A stretch of 64,000 nucleotides of DNA from Sclerodactyla briareus. Its lineage: Eukaryota > Echinodermata > Holothuroidea > Dendrochirotida > Sclerodactylidae. The stretch is from positions 292,501 through 356,500 of the forward strand of contig JAODTK010005762.1 of NCBI GenBank assembly GCA_026419785.1, in the 5' to 3' direction. Under the pieces are notes generated by a model that was not told the origin of the DNA, made no database searches, and worked only from the letters and a program-made list of their open reading frames with translations. Position 1 is the first letter of the stretch, and each line of letters starts with the position of its first letter. This document shows positions 6,373 to 63,615 of this stretch, one piece after another. The translations under genes were made by a program, and so were the position numbers.

Positions 6373-7130
6373 GAGCCTTTTAGGCTGCATTACCAATCTT
6401 AAAATCTGGGCATTTTGTGATCCCAAATTCTATCCTGGCAAAATTTTAATATTTCGTCGGACCATGGTCGTATCGCTCCTCCTTGCCCAGACTGTTCAAT
6501 ATTATTAGTGCTCAACACTACGGTCACCATGCCGCTGGCGCGCAATTTTTCTGGTTTTTCCCGCACATCTTGAAAAACAGGATCTCACCAGAAAATTTGG
6601 AAATTGACTTTCTACGGTCCCAACCATTATATGACGTCTTAGCCGTTACCTGGAGAAACATGCGTTGAAAATCGAAGCAGTCTGATAGCCTAAGCTACTG
6701 CATTTCCAAATCGCGCGTGGTCGATGGATTGAGGAAACGGACCGGAGGCTAAAGAGTTAGTAATCCAAAAGGGGTTGACTGCAGTTTTCAAGGTCACTGA
6801 GATGTTGTTGTATAATTTCACATTTCACCTCACAGATATGAATGATTTAGAGGGCCAATGAGTAGAAATTTCATAGAGGTGCGGAGATGACGGGAAAGCG
6901 ACGGGACACAATCCTGCACTAGTACACGGCGCGAAGCGCGAATTTTTTTCACTTCCCTCGCATTAGCGGCGAATTTGCATAATTTTCTGCCTTTCTTGTG
7001 ATAGTTCTTGTTGTGTTTTGCCAATCTATTTCAATTTCAAACTGGTAGTCGAATATTAACTACTTCAAAATTTTTCCGATCCCCAAATCTCATTGGGGGG
7101 GGGGGGAGGGGAAACGGGGCACAAGGTTTT
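6373..7130. other. No recognised gene; relic repeat patch
   Basis: A weak match to the GGTGGCGC family lies near 6525-6600. A run of G occurs at 7096-7106. Nothing else is recognised. Confidence 0.4.
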
Positions 7131-18774: not shown

Positions 18775-18783
18775 TACCCTAGC

Positions 18784-19712
18784 GGGGACCGCCCGATGTT
18801 CATAAGGCCTTTTATTCATAAGACCTTTTGTTCATAAGGCCCGTTATTCATAACTTGCAAATTTTCGGAAAAAGGGTCCGTTATTCATAATGGCCAAAAA
18901 GGTCCGATATTCATAATAAAAAAGGGGTCTTTGTTCATAGGTCCGATATTCATAATGACCAAGAAGGCCCGTTTTTCATAATATCAAAAGGGTCTGTTAT
19001 TCATAACAGAGCACAAAGGTCTGAAGTCATATAGTAAAAAAGTCGATATTCATAATGGCGAAAGGGTCCGTAATTCATAAAAGTGGAAGGCCCGTTATTT
19101 CAAATAGTGAAAAGGGTCCGTTATTCATAATGGCCAAAAAGGTCCGATATTCATAATGGCGAAAGGGTCCGTTATTCATAATAGCAAAAGAGGTTCGTTA
19201 TTCATAATCGGCGAAAAGGTCCGTTATTCATAATGTGTTTCTTTTCAATAATATACTTGCCAAACAGATTGTTCTACCTATGCGAGGTCCGGCAAGTATG
19301 CAAACCCCTAAACGCAAACCTTTTTCTGTCATCCAGGTCACCTGCGATCCCTGGCAGTCCACGACCGGTGTTTGTTTTCCTATTATGAATAACGGACCCT
19401 TCTCCCTTTATGAATATCGGACCTTTTTTCCTATGAATAACGGACCTTTTTTCCCATTATGAATATCGGACCTTTTCTCTCATTATGAATAACGGACCCT
19501 TTTTCCTATTATGAATAACGGACCTTTTTTCCCATTATGAATATCGGACCTTTTTTCCCATTATGAATATCGGACCTTTTTTCCCATTATGAATATCGGA
19601 CCTTTTCTCTCATTATGAATAACGGCCTTATGAACAAAAGGCCTTATGAATAAAAGGCCCTATGACAAACGGTCCTTATGAATAAAAACCCTTATGAACA
19701 TCGGGCTGTCAT
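18784..19712. mobile_element. Foldback transposon with minisatellite arms, copy 1
   Basis: Two inverted arms surround a unique centre. The left arm (18,784-19,230) is an array of ~25-30-bp units built on TTATTCATAATGGCNAAAAG and GGTCCG. The right arm (19,378-19,712) is the same array reverse complemented. The centre (about 19,231-19,377) is unique and closely matches the centre of the second copy at 45,895-46,760. The tips read GACCGCCCGATGTTCATAAGG on the left and, reverse complemented, GACAGCCCGATGTTCATAAGG on the right. Flanks are TACCCTAGC (18,775-18,783) and CACACTAGC (19,713-19,721), a 7/9 match, consistent with a diverged 9-bp target duplication. No transposase frame is present. A 9-bp duplication with long inverted repeats would fit a Mutator-like (MULE) foldback, but that is inference. 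Confidence 0.8.
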
Positions 19713-19721
19713 CACACTAGC

Positions 19722-26859: not shown

Positions 26860-29050
26860 AAAAGAAGAAACAGAGGGCAATGTCGTCAGCGAATTGGGAG
26901 ATACAGATGTTAGCGGGTTGGAGTTTGGCAAGTCATTCACATAGATTATATACAGCAGAGGACTGAGGACAGACCTCCTGGGGAGTCCCAGCACTGTGAT
27001 TAAAAGAGGGGGGCAGCATGATTGTTATGGTACATGGTAATTTTCCTATTACTCGAAGGAAGGCGGAAAAACAGGTTGGTTACATTAGAAGGAATGTTGA
27101 GTTTGCAAAGTATCAATTTAAGGCCGTTTTATCAGACTGGTCGAAAGCTTTCTCAGCATCGAAAAATAGCATGGGTCTGCAGATTCCTTTTAAACCTAAT
27201 TTGATGCATCGTCGTGGACTGAAAAGTGGACCAGTATCCCTCTGCGGTCCTTGAAAACATATTGGATTCTGAAAGATCCTCATGTTCCAAGGAAGTCCCG
27301 AAGCCCTCCCCCCCCACGGTTCTCTCAAAGATTTTGCCAACCCAAGATGTAAGCAATAGGGCGGTAATGAAGGGTCAAGGGGGGATTTATTAGCCTTGGG
27401 AATTAGAATATTTTTGGCAGTTTTCCAGGAGGCATGGAAATAACAGCATTGAGGACCATGGTGAAGAACCCCTACAAACACAAAAACGTTTTAAAAACTC
27501 TTCACCATGTTTCGCTAATGTTTCAAAATCTTTTTTCGTTGAGTATCACGAAGGTTGGAGAATGTTCCAGAACGTTGTGCACAAAACGTTTTGAAGAAAC
27601 TTTTTGAAAACATTTTCTGAAAGTGTTCTGAAAGGGTTTTGTGGCAAATGATTTGCGCCACAACGGATTTAAGTATGTTAGTATATTATCGATTTGTTAC
27701 CTAGGTTTGCTGTAACTTCTAAATTTGAAGTTGAATTGAAATGCCTCTAGAATATTTCCCACAACATTTTTGGGATGGTATGGGAACGTTTCTGTAACAT
27801 TCGTGTTATCAACATTAAACGTTTTCAAAAAAAACATATGAGAAACATGTTTAGAAACGTTCGAGAAGCTTACAAGGGTAAGCAGAGCGGACTCTGGGAG
27901 ATGCTTAAGGAGACGATAAGTAATCCCATCAGGACCAGGAGAAGAAGACGTTTATTTTGCCTAAGAAATTCCTACTTTCCAAAGAGTTAATGGGGTTAAT
28001 AAGGTCCGGGCGTTAGGGACACAGTTTTGTGTAACGTTTAGAGGGAGATTTCCATTTATGTAGTTGTCAATTTGATTTAAATGCTCAGTCAAAGTTGGGG
28101 GCATAATGGAGGGGTAAAAATATTTTTGAAGGTGGAGGCTAAGAGTGGGAAGTGGCGGTGCTATCAATGAGGTTAGTAGGGATTGAGTTTTTCTTGGGGT
28201 TAAAGTGGAATTGGGGAAAAAAAAAAATTTTTTTCCAAAGCCTTTGGGTCATCTTTCTTATTTAGGTTAGGCAGAAGCTTTCCAAGCAATAGTTTTCTGA
28301 CTTTTTTATATTCATTTTCTATTGGATGTAAGGACATTTATCGCCCTTTTGGTGTGCATGTTACGATTTTCCATATATTGTCTTCTGATTTTTCTCCTGG
28401 CCCTGATAAGGATCTAGAGGGCTTGCTGATTTTCCAAGGCCTGTCCTCCTTGAGAAGGGGGCAAGCTAGCTTCGAAGGATGAGTTTATGGAGGGTTATTT
28501 CTCTGGGCATGTAATCAATATTCTGAGGATAATTTTCAGAGTTGTTCCAACTTTTGTTGATATGTAATGGAAAAGGGGTGGAAATTTCTCCTCAAAAGGG
28601 CCCCAATTAGTTTTTCCCTAGGATTCCTGTAGGAGGGGGGAGTAGAGTATAGAGGGCGGGACGTTAAAGGTAGTAAGAACTAGGTAGGGTTCACTGAGAT
28701 CTGGATCTCATGATTAGGGTGTTGATCTGATTGGCAGCAAGATCAGTGGAGGCAATACATGGTCAAGGAGCTCTCTTTAAGGTTTTCTGGGGTCCGTCTG
28801 GTCTAGTATTGAGCAGTGAGGACAGCAAGCCCATTCCTTTCCCAGATTATTATTTAAAGAGATGTCTCCCAGGAGTAGTTCTACCACAGCCAAAGTCTTT
28901 GTGAGGCAGTTGAGGTCACCGATATGATAGAACTTAGATTTAGCTTATCAAAACTTGATCGTACTTTATTACCGGAGGGGGGGTTGGGTTATAGTAACCG
29001 TGACCTCAATGCAGGTTTTGTGCTTAGTGGGGAGGTATGTGATAACGGCC
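26860..29050 (-). pseudogene. Decayed non-LTR retrotransposon (LINE) ORF2
   Basis: Reading the minus strand from high to low coordinates, pieces of a LINE ORF2 appear in order but in shifting frames. An endonuclease-like remnant (GDLNC-like) is near 28,910. Then comes a basic linker with RARRKIRRQ near 28,400. The reverse transcriptase starts with PGPDGITYRLL at about 27,930. It continues after an insertion with SWKTAKNILIPKANKSPLDPS, FFDAEKAFDQ, then SVLSPLLYIIYVNDLP at about 26,970, and the catalytic FADD box at 26,882-26,893 in a different frame. These are standard RT motifs of Jockey/CR1-like LINEs; the exact clade is uncertain. Several stops and frameshifts, and the insertion at 27,478-27,870, make it inactive. 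Confidence 0.85.
27478..27870. mobile_element. Small element inserted in the LINE reverse transcriptase
   Basis: This 393-bp block interrupts the RT reading between the PGPDGI region and the SWKTAK region, which are contiguous in intact LINEs. TACAA occurs on both sides (27,473-27,477 and 27,871-27,875) and may be the target duplication. The ends carry related inverted motifs (AACGTTTTAAAAAC at the left, AACGTTTCTAAAC on the complement at the right), and the interior repeats AACGTTTT/AACATTTT. No coding capacity. It is a MITE candidate of unknown superfamily. Confidence 0.55.
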
Positions 29051-29821: not shown

Positions 29822-31509
29822 TTAAAGCCGCGTTTTCCCATGGGCACCGGGCGGGCGGGCGGGCGGGCGGGCCGGGCACGCGGACAACCGAGTGACCCGC
29901 TTCCATGCACGCGGGCGGCAGGCGGGCGTTTTCTTGAAGTCACGCACCTCTCACCTTAGTGTGTACTTGCCTATATAAGAACCGTGTAGCCTATCTATTA
30001 TTTTGTGTTATTATTGTTATATTGTTATTATCATTATTATGATTAATTAATCATTCATTATTTATTAATTATGATTTATCAAACCGGCACGCAAGTATAG
30101 TCCTACTAGCGTTTAAACGCTAAACCACCGGTGTTTAGTTTCTCGAACCATTGTTCTAATGGGGGTGTCTTTCGAACTGGTGACTTTAGTAATTACCAGA
30201 TAGAATGAATACAAAACTGTACGTGCTTTCAACGGCTACGCGACGCAGTCACAAACTCTTGGTTGTTGTCGCTCTACCTTGGTATATAGGTATTACGAGT
30301 TCCGAGAAGAGCGCTTTGCGCATAAATGTCAACGATAGCGCCAAATTACAAAATAATTTATTTTATACAAATTAACCTCACAATTGCCAGGTTTTGGAGA
30401 TTTAATTGCATAAACTGACACGTCAATGGTTTTTTTTCTTTTTAAACATGCGTAAAGGTGTTCAATAGGTGTCCGGCGTTAAAAAGGAGAGAATTTGTAT
30501 ACGATATCATTACGAGTGTTGAACAGTTAGGAGGTTGCTTGGAACATTGAATGGAACATAACTTCGCTCTCTACTCGCAACTACCGGGTACAAGCCAGTA
30601 AGATTGCAGGGAAATCCCCGGAAACGATACGAAATACAACGCGGGACCACGGCGGGCGGGTCGGAAAAAATCGCTAAGGACCGATTCGAGAAAACGCCCG
30701 CCCGCCCGCCCGCCCGCGTGCATGGAAACGGACTCCATTGAAAATACGGTGAGCGATTTTAGACGCCCGCCGCCCCGAAGCCCGCCTGCCCCGCCGCGTG
30801 CATGGCGGGCGGGCGGGCGTTAGAATGGCTCACCATATATTTCAATGGAACCGTTTCCATGCAAGAGGGCGGGCACGCAGGCTACGCGGGCACGCGGCGG
30901 GCGGGCGTTTTCTCGAATCGGTCAGGTAGCGATTTTACCCGCGTGCCCGCGTGGTAGTCGTCATCGATTTACGGGCTTTCCCTGCATCTCTTATGCCCTG
31001 TAGGCCCGATAGTGGAGAGTAGAGACAATGTATGTTCAAAAATGTTCCAAACAACATCATAAACTGTTTCAACACTCGTGATGATATCAGGTATACCAAA
31101 TTGTCCCTATTTTTAACGACCAGACAACAACTTTGAACACATGTTTTTAACCATGACGTGTTCAAGTATTTGCTAATAAATTTCCAAAACCTGATCAATG
31201 TGAAGGTTCTAATAGTTTTAAGCGCTATCGTTGAAATTTAGACAAGATTCTCAGCAATAAACAACGGTGGTTAGGTTTAAACACTGGTATGCGTCCGGGT
31301 TGATTGATTAATAACAATAATAAGAAAATTAAAAAAACAATAATCCACGGTTCTTACATAGCACATATACACACCAAACGCTTGGGAAGAGGTGCCATGA
31401 TTGTGTTGAAAACGGCATGCACCAGCCTGCCGCCCGCCCGCGTCATGGAAAAGGGTCATCCGCGTGCCCGCGTGCCCGCGGGCCCGCGTGCATGGAAACA
31501 CGGCTTTAT
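29822..31509. mobile_element. 1.68-kb palindromic DNA element with GC-rich modules
   Basis: The whole segment folds on itself. The left half matches the reverse complement of the right half from tip to axis (axis near 30,790), with the left half longer by roughly 250 bp of indels. The tips are TTAAAGCCGCGTTTTCCCATG on the left and, reverse complemented, ATAAAGCCGTGTTTCCATG on the right. Landmarks shared between arms include ATAAGAACCGTG, CAAACCGGCACGC, CAACGATAGCGC, GATATCATTACGAGTGTTGAA and GACCGATTCGAGAAAACGCCC. A GC module, GTTTCCATGCACGCGGGCGGGCG, occurs near both tips and twice near the axis. TTAA/TTAT at the borders suggests a TTAA target site with one mutation. No coding frame is credible. 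Superfamily is unknown; the TTAAAG start hints at Kolobok or piggyBac-like target choice. Confidence 0.8.
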
Positions 31510-34070: not shown

Positions 34071-34184
34071 AGAAACAAACCAAATAAAATATAAAAATTA
34101 AATCAATAAGCGGTACAAATGTATGTTCAAGACTTAGCATCAGTCGTGAATGTTCGTCCAGCACATTTGGGGGTGTTGTAATGT

Positions 34185-34390
34185 GTGTAAACCAAACAAA
34201 CAATTTTTCCTATTGCCAGTTTGTTTGCAACCAAATAATTGATTTCTGTGGCTTGAGCTACAGCACCATTGTGCTCTTCTTTGTGCTTCTGCATAGGCAG
34301 GGAGAAGTGTGCGTCAATGCTAGACTAGGTACTATTACTGGTGAGTCATTATTTTGTGTCGCATATGCACTGGGGAAGAAAATTTGAATC
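34185..34390 (-). repeat. Single copy of the ~133-bp unit amplified at 56-57 kb
   Basis: The reverse complement matches the end of the array near 57,040-57,245. It includes one array unit (CCCAGTGCATATGCGACACA through CACCAGTAATAGTACCTAG and TCTAGCATTGA) and the adjoining non-tandem flank (GAGCACAATGGYGC, CCACAGAAAT, TTTGGTTGCAAACAAACTGGCA). Here the unit occurs once. Confidence 0.75.
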
Positions 34391-45885: not shown

Positions 45886-45894
45886 CATAATTAC

Positions 45895-46760
45895 CGTGAC
45901 CGCCCGATGTTTCATACGGCCTTTATTCATAAGGCCCGTATTCATAACGTGGCACATTTTTTGAAGAAAAGGGTCTGTTATTCATAATAAAAAAGGGTCT
46001 TTGTTCATAAGTCATGTTCATAATGACCAAAAAGGCCCGTTTTTCATAATTATCAAAAGGGTCTGTTATTCATAACAGAGCACAAAGGCCGATATTCCAT
46101 AATAGTTAAAAAGGTCCGCTATTCATAATGGCGAAAAGGGTCCGGAATTCATAAAAGCGAAAGGGGACCGTTATTCCTAATAGCAAAGAGGTCCGTTATT
46201 CATAATCGCAAAAAAGGCCGTTATTCATAAATAAAAAGGTGGGAAAAAAAAAAAGGAAAAAAAAAATCCGTTATTCAGAATCGCGGAAAGCCGTTATCAA
46301 TAATGTGTTTCTTTTCAGATATACTTGTCAAGCAGATGATTCTACCTATACGATGTCCGGCAAGGATGCAAACCCTAGAACTTCACCTTTTTGTCAGCTG
46401 CATCCCTGGCAGAGATCCACGACCGGTGTTTGTTTCCTATTATGAAAAGCGAACCTTTTTTCCATATTCTGAATATCGTACCCTCCCCTATTATGGATAA
46501 CGGACCTTTATTCCTATTATAATATCGGACCTTTTATTTTTTTCCATTATGAATAGCGGACCCTTTTTTCTCATTAATGAATAACGGACCCTTTTCCACT
46601 GTTATGAATAACGTACCTTCTTTGGATTTATATATCGGACCTTAGAAATAAAGAACCTTTTCGGCCATTATGGATAACGACTGGACCCCAAAGACCTTTG
46701 AATAAAATGCCTTATGACCAACCGTACCTTATGATAAACCCCTATAACCACGGCTGTCAC
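45895..46760. mobile_element. Foldback transposon with minisatellite arms, copy 2
   Basis: Same architecture as 18,784-19,712. The left arm (45,895-46,302) repeats a TTATTCATAA..AAAAGGGTCCG unit, the right arm (about 46,437-46,760) is the inverse, and the centre (about 46,303-46,436) matches the first copy (AATGTGTTTCTTTTCA, GTCCGGCAAG, GCAAACCC, CACGACCGGTGTTTG). The left tip is CGTGACCGCCCGATG; the right tip, reverse complemented, is GTGACAGCC. CATAATTAC occurs perfectly on both flanks (45,886-45,894 and 46,761-46,769), a clear 9-bp target duplication. This proves it moved as a unit. There is no coding capacity. The MULE assignment rests only on the 9-bp duplication and long inverted ends. 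Confidence 0.85.
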
Positions 46761-46769
46761 CATAATTAC

Positions 46770-48035: not shown

Positions 48036-49615
48036 AAAAAAATACGAGGTATCAAAAAACTTAAAAGTGACGTAGGCTTTTAATTGTGAGTCATATAAAC
48101 CATTGCGAAGAATGTTCCCACAATTTTAGCACTAACCCCCCCCCCCCCCTCCTGGTCGCTGGTCTAATCAGTGTTACAATCGTCAGTTTCCCGCTATCCC
48201 TGATGATAAAATATCGGGGCCGAAAGCCCCCCTTCCTTCCCACCCACTACAGGCTTTCAGGGAAAACGTCATGGGGTTAAACATGATTTAGGTGGATCCG
48301 CCACATACCCACTATCCAGGCATGAGTGAACTCAATTCCGACATAACTTAATGTTTGACTCCCTTGTCGAAAGATTGAACCATATTCGCTAGGGCGAACC
48401 CATTATCATAGGCATCGGAGGCAGTGCATATAGTCAAGTTGATATCGAGTAGCGCAGCTCGGCGGCGAGAAAGGGAGCATGTGAGAGCGGGGTGAAGCAA
48501 AAGTGAACTGTTTACACATAAACTACTGAGTGCCCACAAAAAATGGTGGGTTCTTCGTCAACTTCAATGAAATTTGGCAACATTTTGGGATTGTGGCGTA
48601 ATTATAGCGGTAATCTGACAAGCTCACAATTTCAATGTTTTAGCGCCCCTACAAAAACCTAAGGCCTGTGAAAGATCAGGGATAGATTGGGAAGTGCCGT
48701 TTTCTAACATCTGGAGGCCTCATATCCCGATATTCTGTGAAAACACTCACCACCGATGCTTTTCTCTCTCTGTCTGATATTGATCAACGACCAATAAGTA
48801 CTCTAGCCCAGTAGGGACGAATGGGACAGAATATTTTTTTCTCGAACATTACATTCCATCGGGAGGGGGGGGGGCACGGGGAGAGGGGCACATGTTTTCG
48901 ATGAGGGTGGCTCGTGCTCCTCCCCCTGCCCCCTATAAATTTGTAATTTTCGAGGAAAAAATATTCTGTAGTCAGAAAAGACGACCATTTGGATATAGAC
49001 CTTAGCTAATTTGTTGTTTTCATGACAAGAAAGGCAGTCGCTTAATGTGGCCAAATTTGCACTAATAATATAAGTGTACTACGTTCGTGCTTCGCGCGAG
49101 GTACAGTGGTGAATTCGTCCGCGTTGCTCTCACCCCGTCTCACCTCTACAAGCTCTATATGGGACATTTCTTCCTCATTGGTCCCTAGGTCATACATATC
49201 TTGAGGTGAAATATAATACAATCAAAATTTTCATTGGACTTGGGTCAACTACAATCAACCTCTTTTGGGTTACTACACCCTTAGCCCTGTCCTTTCTTTC
49301 CTCTCTCAACCACGTCCAATTTTGAACTGGCCGTATCCTAGGCTATCAGACTGCTCGAATTTTCACATCACAGCGCGTGTTTTCTCCGAGGAACTCTACT
49401 CTCGGACGTTGGCCTGCTCTCTATGGCATTAAGTTTATATCATGGTTGGGACAGTAGAGCTAAAGCAGGCTAATGTCCTAAATTTCTGTTAGGATTATGA
49501 TTTTTCTGAGATGTGCTCTGGAAATCTGAGAAAAATGCGCGCTTCGGGCAACGTAGGAACCGGGTCTGGCTATGTCACAATTTTCACCGATTCCAAATTT
49601 GGTTGCTCATAAAAA
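48036..49615. other. No recognised gene; repeat fragment
   Basis: A poly-C run lies at about 48,137-48,149. A diverged GGTGGCGC-family start (GTGCCGTTTTCTAACATCTGGAG) is at about 48,693. A G run lies at about 48,864-48,872. No gene recognised. Confidence 0.4.
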
Positions 49616-55695: not shown

Positions 55696-56269
55696 TTCCT
55701 CACAAATTTCTCATCACAAAAACTGACACCATCTTGACAAACAGAGGGGTTCCTGTACTTTTACCCAGGACACCCAAGAGTATAGCAAAAAGTCCTCAGT
55801 ACTTAGGATAATAGGAGTGGAAAAAATCACTGCAACACAGAAATAATCTGGAAAGGATCATAAGACACAGTACTGGGGGGGAATGATCCAGGGGGTGCAA
55901 TATAGCGCAGCTGAAAATCCTCCAGAATCGGTAAAATAAAACAGAAAACTCCAACATGAGTCAGCTCTCAATTTAGGATAACTGATAAGAAAAACTTACA
56001 TAATCGTTTGAATCTTGCACCACTGATGTGAGTCACTTTTAGAATGAGAAAAATTCCATAAGTGATCGGACTAAAATTGGCAAAGTGGGGGAAGACCTCC
56101 AATCAACACACACCGCTCCAATAATATGATCAGCATTGGATCACTAGTTTTGATTTAGATAAGACACAAAAATTGATGCCACACAATCTTGCTACATTTG
56201 GCAACTTTTTCCCCTAGTCATATACAATAGTGCCCTTTACTCCCCCGTTGTTAACTTATTTTGCAAATT
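55696..56269. other. No recognised feature
   Basis: Mostly unannotated. Sequence from about 56,180 resembles the following tandem unit but is very diverged. Confidence 0.4.
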
Positions 56270-57175
56270 CTCCTTCTAGTGCCTATGCACCACGTAATGA
56301 TGACACACCAGTAATAAAACATAGTCCAGCATCAAACCACCTCAAGTTGGAGAAGACAGGAAATAATGACACACCTCCTCTGTGGTAACTCTATTTTGCA
56401 ACATCTTCTCCCAGTGCATATGCGACACAAAAAAATGACCCACCAGTAATAAAACATAGTCCAGCATCGAACCACCTGAAGTTTCTCCCTTTGGAGAAGA
56501 CAGGAAATAATGACACACCTCCTCTTGTGGTAACTCTATTTTGCAACGTCTTCTCCCAGTGCATATGCGACACAAAAAAATGACCCACCAGTAATAATAC
56601 TAGTACTCGATTGAACCGCCTTTGACGAAGACACAAAATAATGACACAACTCCTCTTGCTGTAACTCTCATTTTGCAACTTTTCCCTAGTGCATATGCAA
56701 CACTAAATAATGACTCACCAGTAATAGTACCTAGTCTAGCATTGAATCACCTTCTTTGAAGAAGACACAAAATAATGACACAACTCCTCTTGCTGTAACT
56801 CTCATTTTGCAACTTTTCCCTAGTGCATATGCAACACTAAATAATGACTCACCAGTAATGATACCTAGTCTAGCATTGAATCACCTTCTTTGAAGAAGAC
56901 ACAAAATAATGACACAACTCCTCTTGCTGTAACTCTCATTTTGCAACTTTTCCCTAGTGCATAGCAACACTAAATAATGACTCACCAGTAATAGTACCTA
57001 GTCTAGCATTGAACCACCTTCTTTGAAGAGACACAAATAAATGACACAACTCCTCTTGCTGTAACTCTCATTTTGCAACTTTTCCCTAGTGCATATGCAA
57101 CACTAAATAATGACTCACCAGTAATAGTACCTAGTCTAGCATTGAACCACCTCCTGCCTCTGCAGCCGCACGAAC
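56270..57175. repeat. Tandem array, seven ~133-bp units
   Basis: The landmark CCAGTAAT occurs at 56,308, 56,443, 56,588, 56,718, 56,852, 56,985 and 57,118, giving periods of 130-145 bp. Units share GACACAACTCCTCTTGCTGT, TTTTGCAACTTTTCCC, AGTGCATATGCAACACTAAA, TAATGACTCACCAGTAATAG and TCTAGCATTGAA. The last four units are nearly identical, the first three are more diverged, so the array is being homogenised from one end. A further diverged unit lies at about 57,340-57,430. Minus-strand frames with internal repeats (56,342-56,678) are artefacts. Confidence 0.9.
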
Positions 57176-58679: not shown

Positions 58680-59298
58680 ATGAGTAGGGGAGGGGGAGAG
58701 TGAGTAGGGGAGGGGAAGAGTGAGTAGGGGAGGGGGAGGAGAGTGAGTAGGGGAGGGGGAGGAGAGTGAGTAGGGGAGGGGAAGAGTGAGTAGGGGAGGG
58801 GGAGAGTGAGTAGGGGAGGGGAAGAGTGAGTAGGGGAGGGGGCAAGTGAGTAGGGGAGGGGGCAAGTGAGTAGGGGAGGGGGCGAGTGAGTAGGGGAGGG
58901 GGCAGTGAGTAGGGGAGGGGAAGAGTGAGTAGGGGAGGGGGAGAGTGAGTAGGGGAGGGGGAGTGAGTAGGGGAGGGGGAGAGTGAGTAGGGGAGGGGGA
59001 GAGTGAGTAGGGGAGGGAGGCATGAGTAGGGGAGGGGGAGAGTGAGTAGGGGAGGGGGAGAGTGAGTAGGGGAGGGGAAGAGTGAGTAGGGGAGGGGGCG
59101 AGTGAGTAGGGGAGGGGGCGAGTGAGTAGGGGAGGGGGAGGAGAGTGAGTAGGGGAGGGGGTAGTGAGTAGGGGAGGGGGCAAGTGAGTAGGGGAGGGAG
59201 GCATGAGTAGGGGAGGGGAAGAGTGAGTAGGGGAGGGGAAGAGTGAGTAGGGGAGGGAGGCATGAGTAGGGGAGGGAGGCATGAGTAGGAGAGGGGGG
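58680..59298. repeat. Minisatellite, ~20-bp GAGTAGGGGAGGGGGAGAGT unit
   Basis: About 30 units of 17-23 bp, differing mainly by AAG/GAG/GCAA/GCG variants after the G-rich core and by short GGAGGCAT units. The G strand is the plus strand. It sits in the presumed intron between the Ig-like exons. Three long Pro/Ser/Leu-rich minus frames (up to 284 codons, 58,468-59,322) run through it in all phases only because the unit rarely makes stops on that strand. Confidence 0.97.
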
Positions 59299-60366
59299 AG
59301 AGGGAGAAGGCTTTTTGAACAATTTTTGAAACTTAACATCTAGGCTAAAAACTAAAAAAAAAAAAGAAAAAAAAAATGGTTTGTAGAAATAGGTGAAACT
59401 TGAGCAGATCTAAAAAAATGAGTTCTCGAATTGCTAGTCTCACCTGTTGGAGGTTTGCGATTCAAGCAGATAACAGCAAAAATCTAAAAGCAACATAGAG
59501 GTGGCTATAGTTTTGCCAGCCCCAAGTGTTCACATGGAAACAGCCCTAACAGGTGTATGGAGTATCACTGTCAAACTCATGGGATTGAATGATGACAATG
59601 TCTACCAATAACAAGTGTTGTGAGAATGTGACTGGTAGGAATTTTGACCACTAAGTGGATTAAACAACGAGTTTATCAAAATTGCATAAATCATGCAAAT
59701 AAGACACATTGAATGACCTCAACTAACATTTCAAATTCAGGATTGATGACGACATCCATCAAGTCTTCGCTGAATTGCAAACTTTCAAAATTTTCATATG
59801 TCATGCAAATTAGGCACATTATGTGACCTTGAGTACCCAGAATTTGGTCTAATTTCTCAGGAATAAAAGGTTGTATGTTTAAATCTGTCAACTCTGATAT
59901 ATTATTAGAAATAAAACCAACCTAATTCATCTACAAATTACCCTGTACCTATGTGCCAAATCAGTTCACCATAGTTGCTATAGTTCATCTATGATCTCAA
60001 ACAATGAATAACATAGATTAGGACAATACCCTACGTACTTCATTTTTTTTTCAAACTCTCCAGACGGATCGGTTGCACCCAACCCTGATACCACTCACAA
60101 AAATTCATCGGAATCGGTATTACAGTCTCTGAGACATTGTGACATACGCGCATGCAAACACACACATTCCAAAATGATTGAGAGGTTTCTTCCCAAACTT
60201 CATTCAGATGTGACTAAATAAAGTAGACGGACCGTTCTTTTTTATTCTTTTCTGCATGGTGTTTTAATTGATTTCATGAACAAGGACAGTGCAATCCACA
60301 GAACTTTTGAGATTCAGCAATAATAATTCTACCTTGCCCAGATTTGAATGGTCCTGTATGCCTTAC
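59299..60366. other. Intron-like sequence with a diverged direct repeat
   Basis: An A-rich stretch lies at 59,355-59,378. CATGCAAATAAGACACATTGAATGACCTC at about 59,693 recurs, diverged, at about 59,805 (~110 bp apart). A TGACATACGCGCATGCAAAC..CACACA patch at about 60,140 resembles the tail of the TGACC-type repeats. No coding signal. Confidence 0.45.
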
Positions 60367-62299: not shown

Positions 62300-63615
62300 C
62301 CAATTGGTACAGGTGTGCGAAGCTGCAACGAGGGTGCTTGGTGGAGCAGGACGTGATGTCACGCTAACAAGTGGTCCATAACTGTAAGAGCTTGCAGAAC
62401 TTTCAGCTGACTGGGAATGCTCGTGGGCCGTCCGTGCTGTCACCCAGTACAAGTGGGTTCTAACTGTAAATACTACAGCCACTTCATCTGTGACAGGGTT
62501 GCTCAGTGGAGCAGGACCATTATGTCACGCCAATACAAGTGGTTCATAACTTAAATAGCTACCAGCACTTCGCTGTGACAAGGGTTCTCAGGGGAGCATG
62601 AAAAAAAAAAAAAAAAAAACAGTATGTACAAATACAAGTGGGTTCATCACTGTAATAGCTACCAGGCACTTCAGCTGTGACGTTGAATACTGGGTGGAGC
62701 ATGCAGTCTGTGATGTCACGCCAGTACAAGGGGATCCATAACGTAAATGAGCTACCAGGCACTTCGCGTGAAAACCCCCCGCCAAAAGGGTGTTGCGATC
62801 AGGAGTGGAGCTAGGACATATGTCACGCAAATACAAGGGTTTCATACTGTAAATAGCTACCAGCACTTCAGCTGTGATGTAGGAAGGCTGGGTGGAGATG
62901 CAGTCGGTGATGAATCAAGCCAGTACAAGTGGTTCATAACTGTAAATAGCTATCAGGCACTTCAGCTGTGACAAGGGTTGATCCTGGAGCGGACCTTAGT
63001 CACGCCAAATGACAAGTGCGTTTAGAAGTGTAGATAGGTACCAGGCAATTAAGCTGTTGCAAGGAAGTGATCGGTGGAAGCATGCGCTGTGATGCACGCC
63101 AAAGCCAGTGGTGCATAACTTTAAATAGCGACAAGGCACTTCAGTGTGACAAGGTTGATCAGTGGAGCAGGAACATTATGTCACGCCAATACAAGTGGTT
63201 CATAACCTGTAAACATAGCTACCAGGCACTTCAGCTGTGACAAGGGTTGCTGCAGGGGAGCAGGACATTATGTCACGCCAATCCAAGTGGGTTCATAACT
63301 GTAAATAGCTATCAGGCACTTCAGCTGTGAACAGGGTCGCTCAGTGGAGCAGGACATTACGTCACGCCCATACAAGTGGTTCATACTGTAAATAGCTACC
63401 AGGCAATTAACTGTGAAAGGATGCTTGGTGGAGCCTGTGCAGTCTGTGATGTCACGCCCCATACAAGTGGTTCATAACTGTGTAAATAGCACCCAGGCAC
63501 TTCAGCCTGCAACGAGGAATGCTTGTTGGAGCGCAGGACTTTTTTTTTTTTTGATTCAAGCTATACAAGTGGCTCATACCGTAACAGCTGCCCGGCACTT
63601 CAGCCCACACCAAAA
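62300..63615. repeat. Tandem array, about fourteen ~90-bp units
   Basis: The unit reads roughly CAAGTGGTTCATAACTGTAA, ATAGCTACCAGGCACTTCAG, CTGTGACAAGGGTTGCTCAG, TGGAGCAGGACATTATGTCA, CGCCAATA. About fourteen units occur. Most differences are single-base gains and losses, giving irregular spacing of 80-100 bp. Short A or T runs replace parts of two units near 62,600 and 63,541. Frames over it are artefacts. Confidence 0.93.

Follow-up and report, generated by a model that had tools for sequence, protein, structure and literature searches.

The Foldback (FB) element of Drosophila and the TU element of sea urchins have long inverted repeats and many copies that lack a transposase, and their target duplications measure 9 bp and 8 bp, respectively. 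Both are named as foldback elements in PMC4079207. Tetris of Drosophila virilis is a non-autonomous foldback element with tandem repeats in its TIRs, built of ~220-bp units and flanked by 8–10-bp duplications, for which no autonomous copy was found (PMC4079207). In Tm1 of root-knot nematodes, a MULE/Phantom foldback element, the TIRs are composite and vary in their number of ~14-bp repeats, the terminal motifs are asymmetric, and both MITE-like and longer members occur; 9 bp is the commonest duplication length, and there is a known putative transposase (PMC3169594). In Galileo, a member of the P superfamily, the TIRs are long and internally repetitive, with several sites bound by the THAP domain of the transposase and a repeat number that varies in one subfamily; Galileo also has a known P-type transposase, 7-bp duplications and ~210-bp repeats (PMC3688188, PMC3573991). 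Animal Mutator-like elements (MULEs) make 8- or 9-bp duplications, and among them Muta1 and Muta5 of Aedes have TIRs of short tandem repeats (145 and 151 bp), mixed 8- and 9-bp duplications and many non-autonomous derivatives (PMC5225508).

The family reported here, found in a 64,000-nucleotide stretch of the Sclerodactyla briareus genome (the window), is rated, by its structure, as a new family of this already known kind (FB, TU, Tm1, Tetris, Galileo). It differs from FB and TU in sequence, and has an 8-bp duplication and two different tips beginning with GG. Unlike Tm1, it has 8-bp duplications and no transposase was found; its units are 16 and 26 bp long, in contrast to the much longer units of Tetris and Galileo, and its arms are longer than the TIRs of Muta1 and Muta5.

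Two Foldback Copies in the Window

Two copies of the element lie in the window. Their identities below refer to a 1,002-bp family consensus, built by aligning 22 chosen copies from the same genome.

18776..18783, no strand: left target duplication of copy 1, ACCCTAGC (from the sequence and the two-tip flank analysis)
18784..19713, plus strand: copy 1, entire element, 930 bp, ~85% identical to the consensus
18784..18798, plus strand: tip of copy 1, GGGGACCGCCCGATG
18799..19235, plus strand: left arm of copy 1, with outer 15–16-bp units and inner ~26-bp units, TTCATAA core
19236..19375, plus strand: non-repetitive centre of copy 1, ~140 bp
19376..19698, minus strand: right arm of copy 1, inverted units
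19699..19713, minus strand: other tip of copy 1, reverse complement GATGACAGCCCGATG, family form GGTGACAGCCCGATG
19714..19721, no strand: right target duplication of copy 1, ACACTAGC, matching the left at 7 of 8 positions
45887..45894, no strand: left target duplication of copy 2, ATAATTAC (read directly)
45895..46761, plus strand: copy 2, entire element, 867 bp, 79–84% identical to the consensus
46762..46769, no strand: right target duplication of copy 2, ATAATTAC, 8 of 8 (read directly)

In both copies, arms of TTCATAA-type units are oriented towards each other with the ~140-bp centre between them, and the two are 77% identical across 845 bp. The sequence-only reading, which had proposed two copies sharing tips, a centre and inverted unit arms, is thus borne out, with the ends adjusted to 18784–19713 and 45895–46761. 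Because they are only ~85% and 79–84% identical to the consensus, both copies are judged to be old elements. Apart from these two, no member was detected in the window at E 1e-5 when five sequences of the family were compared with it. A 14-base tip with up to three mismatches matched the window six times, three of these being tips of the two elements, against 5.6 matches expected, and is uninformative.

Other repeats occur in the window. A separate long palindrome (30323–31240), ~70% alike, has ends TAAATKTCAACGATAGCGC and a GC-rich core of CCCGCCCG runs; its sequence differs from that of the foldback family, and it probably represents a further transposon with inverted repeats. A 134-bp unit is present in five tandem copies (93%) at 56249–57155 and has an inverted relative 22 kb away at 34113–34377, and a ~181-bp unit (sub-unit ~85 bp) forms an array at 62328–63532. 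At 58681–59310 there are ~31 copies of the 20-bp G-rich unit TGAGTAGGGGAGGGGGAGAG, with long open frames in three frames, and an inverted pair of a ~280-bp repeat, 71% alike, occupies 6666–6942 and 49084–49365. An open frame on the minus strand (27113–27490) contains FFDAEKAFDQ, reminiscent of the reverse-transcriptase motif of LINE elements; at a limit of E = 0.1 it matched nothing in Pfam. The same result was obtained for all ten open frames of the window that were compared with Pfam, and Rfam and tRNA scans of the whole window were empty.

Dispersal of the Family

The host assembly searched comprises 319.5 Mb in 3,171 contigs. The exact 15-base tip occurs at 82 sites (42 forward, 40 reverse), and its reversed control at none; with a 23-base tip and up to three mismatches the number rises to 198, again with none for the control. 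The ~140-bp centre gave 40 scored matches, the best 40 of 135 candidates, both window copies included. Searching the genome with centre and tips, as the sequence-only reading had proposed, therefore reveals a dispersed family.

The ends of this family are sharp. Beyond GGGGACC...GTCACC, the 22-copy consensus consists almost wholly of unassigned bases, and flanks aligning past the tips, which had been named as a sign of segmental duplication, are absent from the 22-copy alignment. Segmental duplication is rejected on this lack of common flank sequence. Dispersed copies lie in unrelated flanks with 8-bp target-site duplications, in agreement with the proposal that the structure has moved as a single unit. 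The window copies belong to a dispersed foldback DNA-transposon family that is apparently non-autonomous. A viral-contig pattern scan gave three matches, and the one examined (L001) was without the element in the stretch read.

Tips and Target Duplication

Elements of the family are bounded by the tip form GGKGACMGCCCGATG, and the two tips of an element generally differ, as GGGGACCGCCCGATG and GGTGACAGCCCGATG. Judged by the third base, 25 of 27 two-tipped elements have one GGG-type and one GGT-type tip, and the 5′-GG start is found in 25/27 left and 24/27 right tips. The side of each tip is fixed relative to the centre. Of the left tips scoring at least 35, 15/16 are GGG-type (exception L018), and of the right tips scoring at least 35, 24/25 are GGT-type (exception L034). 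In 6 of 13 stretches read (L096, L099, L101, L104, L105 and L107), neither arm units nor a centre follow the tip in the region from about +430 to about +780; these are on contigs C2819, C2883, C2964, C3019, C3023 (244680) and C3098, and comparison of the six with each other revealed no common interior. They are probably truncated ends, and may otherwise be short-armed elements with other interiors or a hidden autonomous copy.

The length of the target duplication depends on where the tip begins. When one tip base was taken as flank, 13 of 40 sequences examined passed a two-tip score, and five of these 13 reached 8 or 9 matches of 9, one being perfect. In this frame the base to the right of the element is C in 13/13 copies but equals the left base in only 3/13, and this C therefore belongs to the tip. 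The frame anchored on the GG tips was applied to 72 loci, a selection already cleared of overlapping loci and of some loci known to have no partner tip, and it yielded 27 distinct elements with a sufficient two-tip score. At length 8, mean flank identity in these 27 is 62%, against a shuffled maximum of 37.5%; among the remaining lengths between 5 and 12, none rises above the maximum of its shuffled control, which length 9 equals (32.9%). Matches at 7 or 8 positions are seen in 14 of the 27 elements, six of them perfect, whereas at length 9 no element (0/27) matches at 8 or 9 positions. The remaining 13 fall below 7/8, and some of these appear to be one base out of register and are uncounted as support.

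The target duplication is 8 bp, and the ninth base is part of the tip, which begins 5′-GG. A 9-bp duplication, which had been read as perfect in copy 2 and as a 7/9 match in copy 1, is rejected on the absence of any element at 8 or 9 of 9 and on the constant tip C: copy 2 has the 8-bp ATAATTAC followed by a chance C, and in copy 1 ACCCTAGC and ACACTAGC agree at 7/8. Copy 2 itself is absent from the list of 27, its right tip being decayed and failing the two-tip score, and its duplication was read by eye. Genome-wide, the consistent 9-bp class that had been expected gives way to an 8-bp class. More generally, a duplication length read from two copies can be wrong by a single base if the flank happens to match the tip.

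Arms of the Window's Subfamily

The consensus arms are long inverted arms of direct tandem units, with 19 exact cores in the left arm and 17 in the right, the spacing being 15–16 bp close to the tips and, for the most part, 26 bp farther in. After reverse complementation the two arms match at 347 of 406 aligned positions. Both tips continue into CCGATGTTCATAA, and the arm units CCGATATTCATAA and CCGTTATTCATAA repeat sequence just inside the tip; the consensus contains four and five of the former on its two strands, and eight and seven of the latter.

The sequence-only reading had proposed arms that expand and contract. For the window's subfamily the changes are mostly losses: 43 deletions and 17 insertions of at least 12 bp separate the copies from the consensus, and 10 of the 43 deletions are 24–28 bp long, or one unit. 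Unit segments of the left arm best match their own consensus position in 308.5 of 359 cases, against a chance expectation of 23.9; the test was confined to that arm and favours collinearity, since its segments were themselves delimited by aligning the copies with this consensus. The units are mostly collinear and inherited in order, with more variation by deletion than by insertion, and free expansion and contraction is rejected as the rule here on the collinear units and the 43 to 17 imbalance. Fourteen pairs of deletions are similar in place and length, 11 of them between different copies; large deletions are thus not all private, and some changes may be shared by descent.

Second Subfamily and Long Form

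Expansion did occur in one copy, L109, of a second subfamily, for which L109, L068 and a portion of L110 were read. In L109 the tip takes the variant form ...CGATATTC, and the ~290-bp centre is unrelated to that of the window copies. The left arm of L109 contains seven identical 26-bp units; in its right arm a slightly different type of unit is repeated identically eight times, with two units in one run and six in the other, whereas its relative L068 has single non-identical units at the corresponding place. In L109, amplification took place in situ and on either side separately, and to this extent the proposed growth of arms stands. The tip variant is present at least seven times among the matches listed for the 23-base tip. 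Among the best 40 of 164 candidates, eight other places match the L109 arm/centre junction over at least 100 of its 161 bases; they are distributed over seven contigs (C329, C1595, C2375, C2750, C3089, C3146 and C3150, the last with two), and two of these contigs are loci with the tip variant. The centre itself gave 40 scored matches (the best 40 of 302 candidates); because few of their contigs recur in the junction search, part of the centre matches may represent an independent repeat.

Arms that are tandem arrays, and the growth of an array in L109, would be expected if minisatellites had grown independently, or if segmental duplication rather than transposition had spread the copies. The sharp ends, unrelated flanks, 8-bp duplications and collinearity of units across copies argue strongly against such an origin, which we regard as very improbable, and transposition is the reading followed below.

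The middle of the element is also variable. L049, L080, L060 and L092 keep the family tip and arm and have other interiors in common, and L086 has only short, weak pieces common to L060 and L092. A complete long copy (C2193:155284–159921, 4,638 bp) carries the family tips and an arm on either side, with imperfect flanks (CAATAAC / CAATAAAC). Part of its interior recurs, 74–85% alike by segment, at 13 or more places including its own (from the best 40 of 1,833 candidates), and the other 12 have an extra ~360–470 bp absent from C2193. Family tips or arms adjoin at least 4 of the 13 places (C2193, one of two on C394, C2768 and C959). In the C394 copy, the interior bordering the GGTGACA arm is similar (53 bp, 89%) to the final ~30 bp of the short centre together with the adjoining unit, and this likeness suggests that one form may derive from the other, short or long, by losing or exchanging its middle. 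Three kinds of middle, of ~140 bp, ~290 bp and several kilobases, thus occur between like arms, and unit number varies, as in the amplification of L109.

The long form was considered as an autonomous partner and rejected. Nine stop-free pieces (74–123 aa) from two long-form copies had no Pfam match up to E = 1, and no listed transposase-domain match lies in the 13 interior places. The long-form interior looks non-coding or too decayed.

Candidate Mobilizing Enzymes

The absence of a transposase inside the element, part of the sequence-only reading, holds for the elements examined, and searches of the host genome for a full-length element with the same tips and a transposase gene found none. 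These domain searches score the best candidates only and ignore introns, and the control genomes gave no matches for hAT, KDZ or P; for these reasons the absence of a match is weak evidence. A Mutator-like enzyme had been inferred from the supposed 9-bp duplication, a basis that is lost with a duplication of 8 bp. A Mutator-like or a Merlin-like mobilizer fits best.

Tm1, and probably also Tetris, are assigned to Mutator-like (MULE) transposases, and an enzyme of this kind is a credible though tentative candidate here. In Aedes, MULEs make 8–9-bp duplications, ten of the twelve long-TIR families have 9–15-bp subterminal tandem repeats, and Muta1 has nine 12-bp repeats with 3–4-bp spacers, close to the 15–16-bp outer units found here (PMC5225508). 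Tm1 is classed as a MULE/foldback element (PMC3169594), and foldback elements mostly seem to be Mutator (PMC4079207). Against this, no 9-bp class accompanies the 8-bp duplications of the family, whereas Muta1 in yeast is reported to have produced both lengths, 8 bp in 21 cases and 9 bp in 39 (PMC5225508). In addition, the MULE domain PF10551 had no match in the host genome (4 candidates scored, introns and decay not being allowed for), and no MULE transposase with family tips was found with this profile.

Merlin (IS1016/IS1595-type) transposases are associated with TIRs having terminal 5′-GG and with 8- or 9-bp duplications (PMC8101967), and the GG tips and 8-bp duplication of the family agree with both features. 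One remnant of the Merlin domain PF12762 (DDE_Tnp_IS1595) is present in the genome, but this locus (L073) has one stop and no family tips within the 3.3 kb examined. Among the paper titles searched, none points to a Merlin foldback element; the two words co-occur in PMC10794571 and PMC8848866. We consider a Merlin mobilizer unlikely on balance, though worth retaining.

The enzyme could instead be another one that makes 8-bp duplications (hAT, P or KDZ), or an undescribed and possibly lost one, which is a somewhat doubtful proposition. Matches to hAT (38), P-type (10) and KDZ (1) domains do occur in the genome; however, no listed match lies between family tips inside an element examined, and the nearest hAT piece seen is 12.6 kb from a tip (contig C3024). 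hAT and P elements have CA-type ends, unlike the GG tips of this family. Separately, C2437:57081–58178 contains three evenly spaced P-type transposase domain matches, each to part 37–91 and stop-free, and is a tandemly repeated transposase piece.

Proposed Mechanism and Implications

With good confidence, we interpret the family as old non-autonomous foldback transposons, moved in trans by a cut-and-paste transposase, with arms derived from amplified sequence inside the tips, an 8-bp duplication and a replaceable middle. A transposase made elsewhere would recognize the GG-starting tips together with the repeated arm motif CCG(A/T)TATTCATAA, bring both ends together, excise the element and insert it with an 8-bp stagger. 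The arms would have formed when sequence lying immediately inward of the tips was amplified in tandem; because their units resemble that sequence, the arms are probably amplified transposase-binding sites, each arm offering several. A precedent exists in Galileo, for which binding of the TIR tandem repeats by the DNA-binding domain of the transposase was shown (PMC3688188). The middle may be swapped or lost between arms of like kind, and repeated units are also prone to slippage and unequal exchange, processes that would account for both whole-unit loss and the amplification in L109. No transposase was found with family tips, which counts against cut-and-paste movement as a demonstrated step. 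Other points weigh against the interpretation: 13 of the 27 two-tipped elements are without a duplication at 7 or 8 of 8, the copies examined are decayed, and the likeness of units and tips could reflect descent without any binding function.

It is possible, and we suggest it tentatively, that this foldback plan of amplified tip-motif arms and interchangeable middles arose under a transposase outside Mutator and P, for example a Merlin-type or undescribed enzyme with strictly 8-bp duplications, like arms carrying at least three unrelated middles and gaining units one at a time while their lineage was mobile. The family adds to the known foldback elements one with a clean 8-bp footprint, and its collinear-armed subfamily, set against a copy with freshly amplified arms, offers a direct comparison of transposon ends growing into minisatellites.
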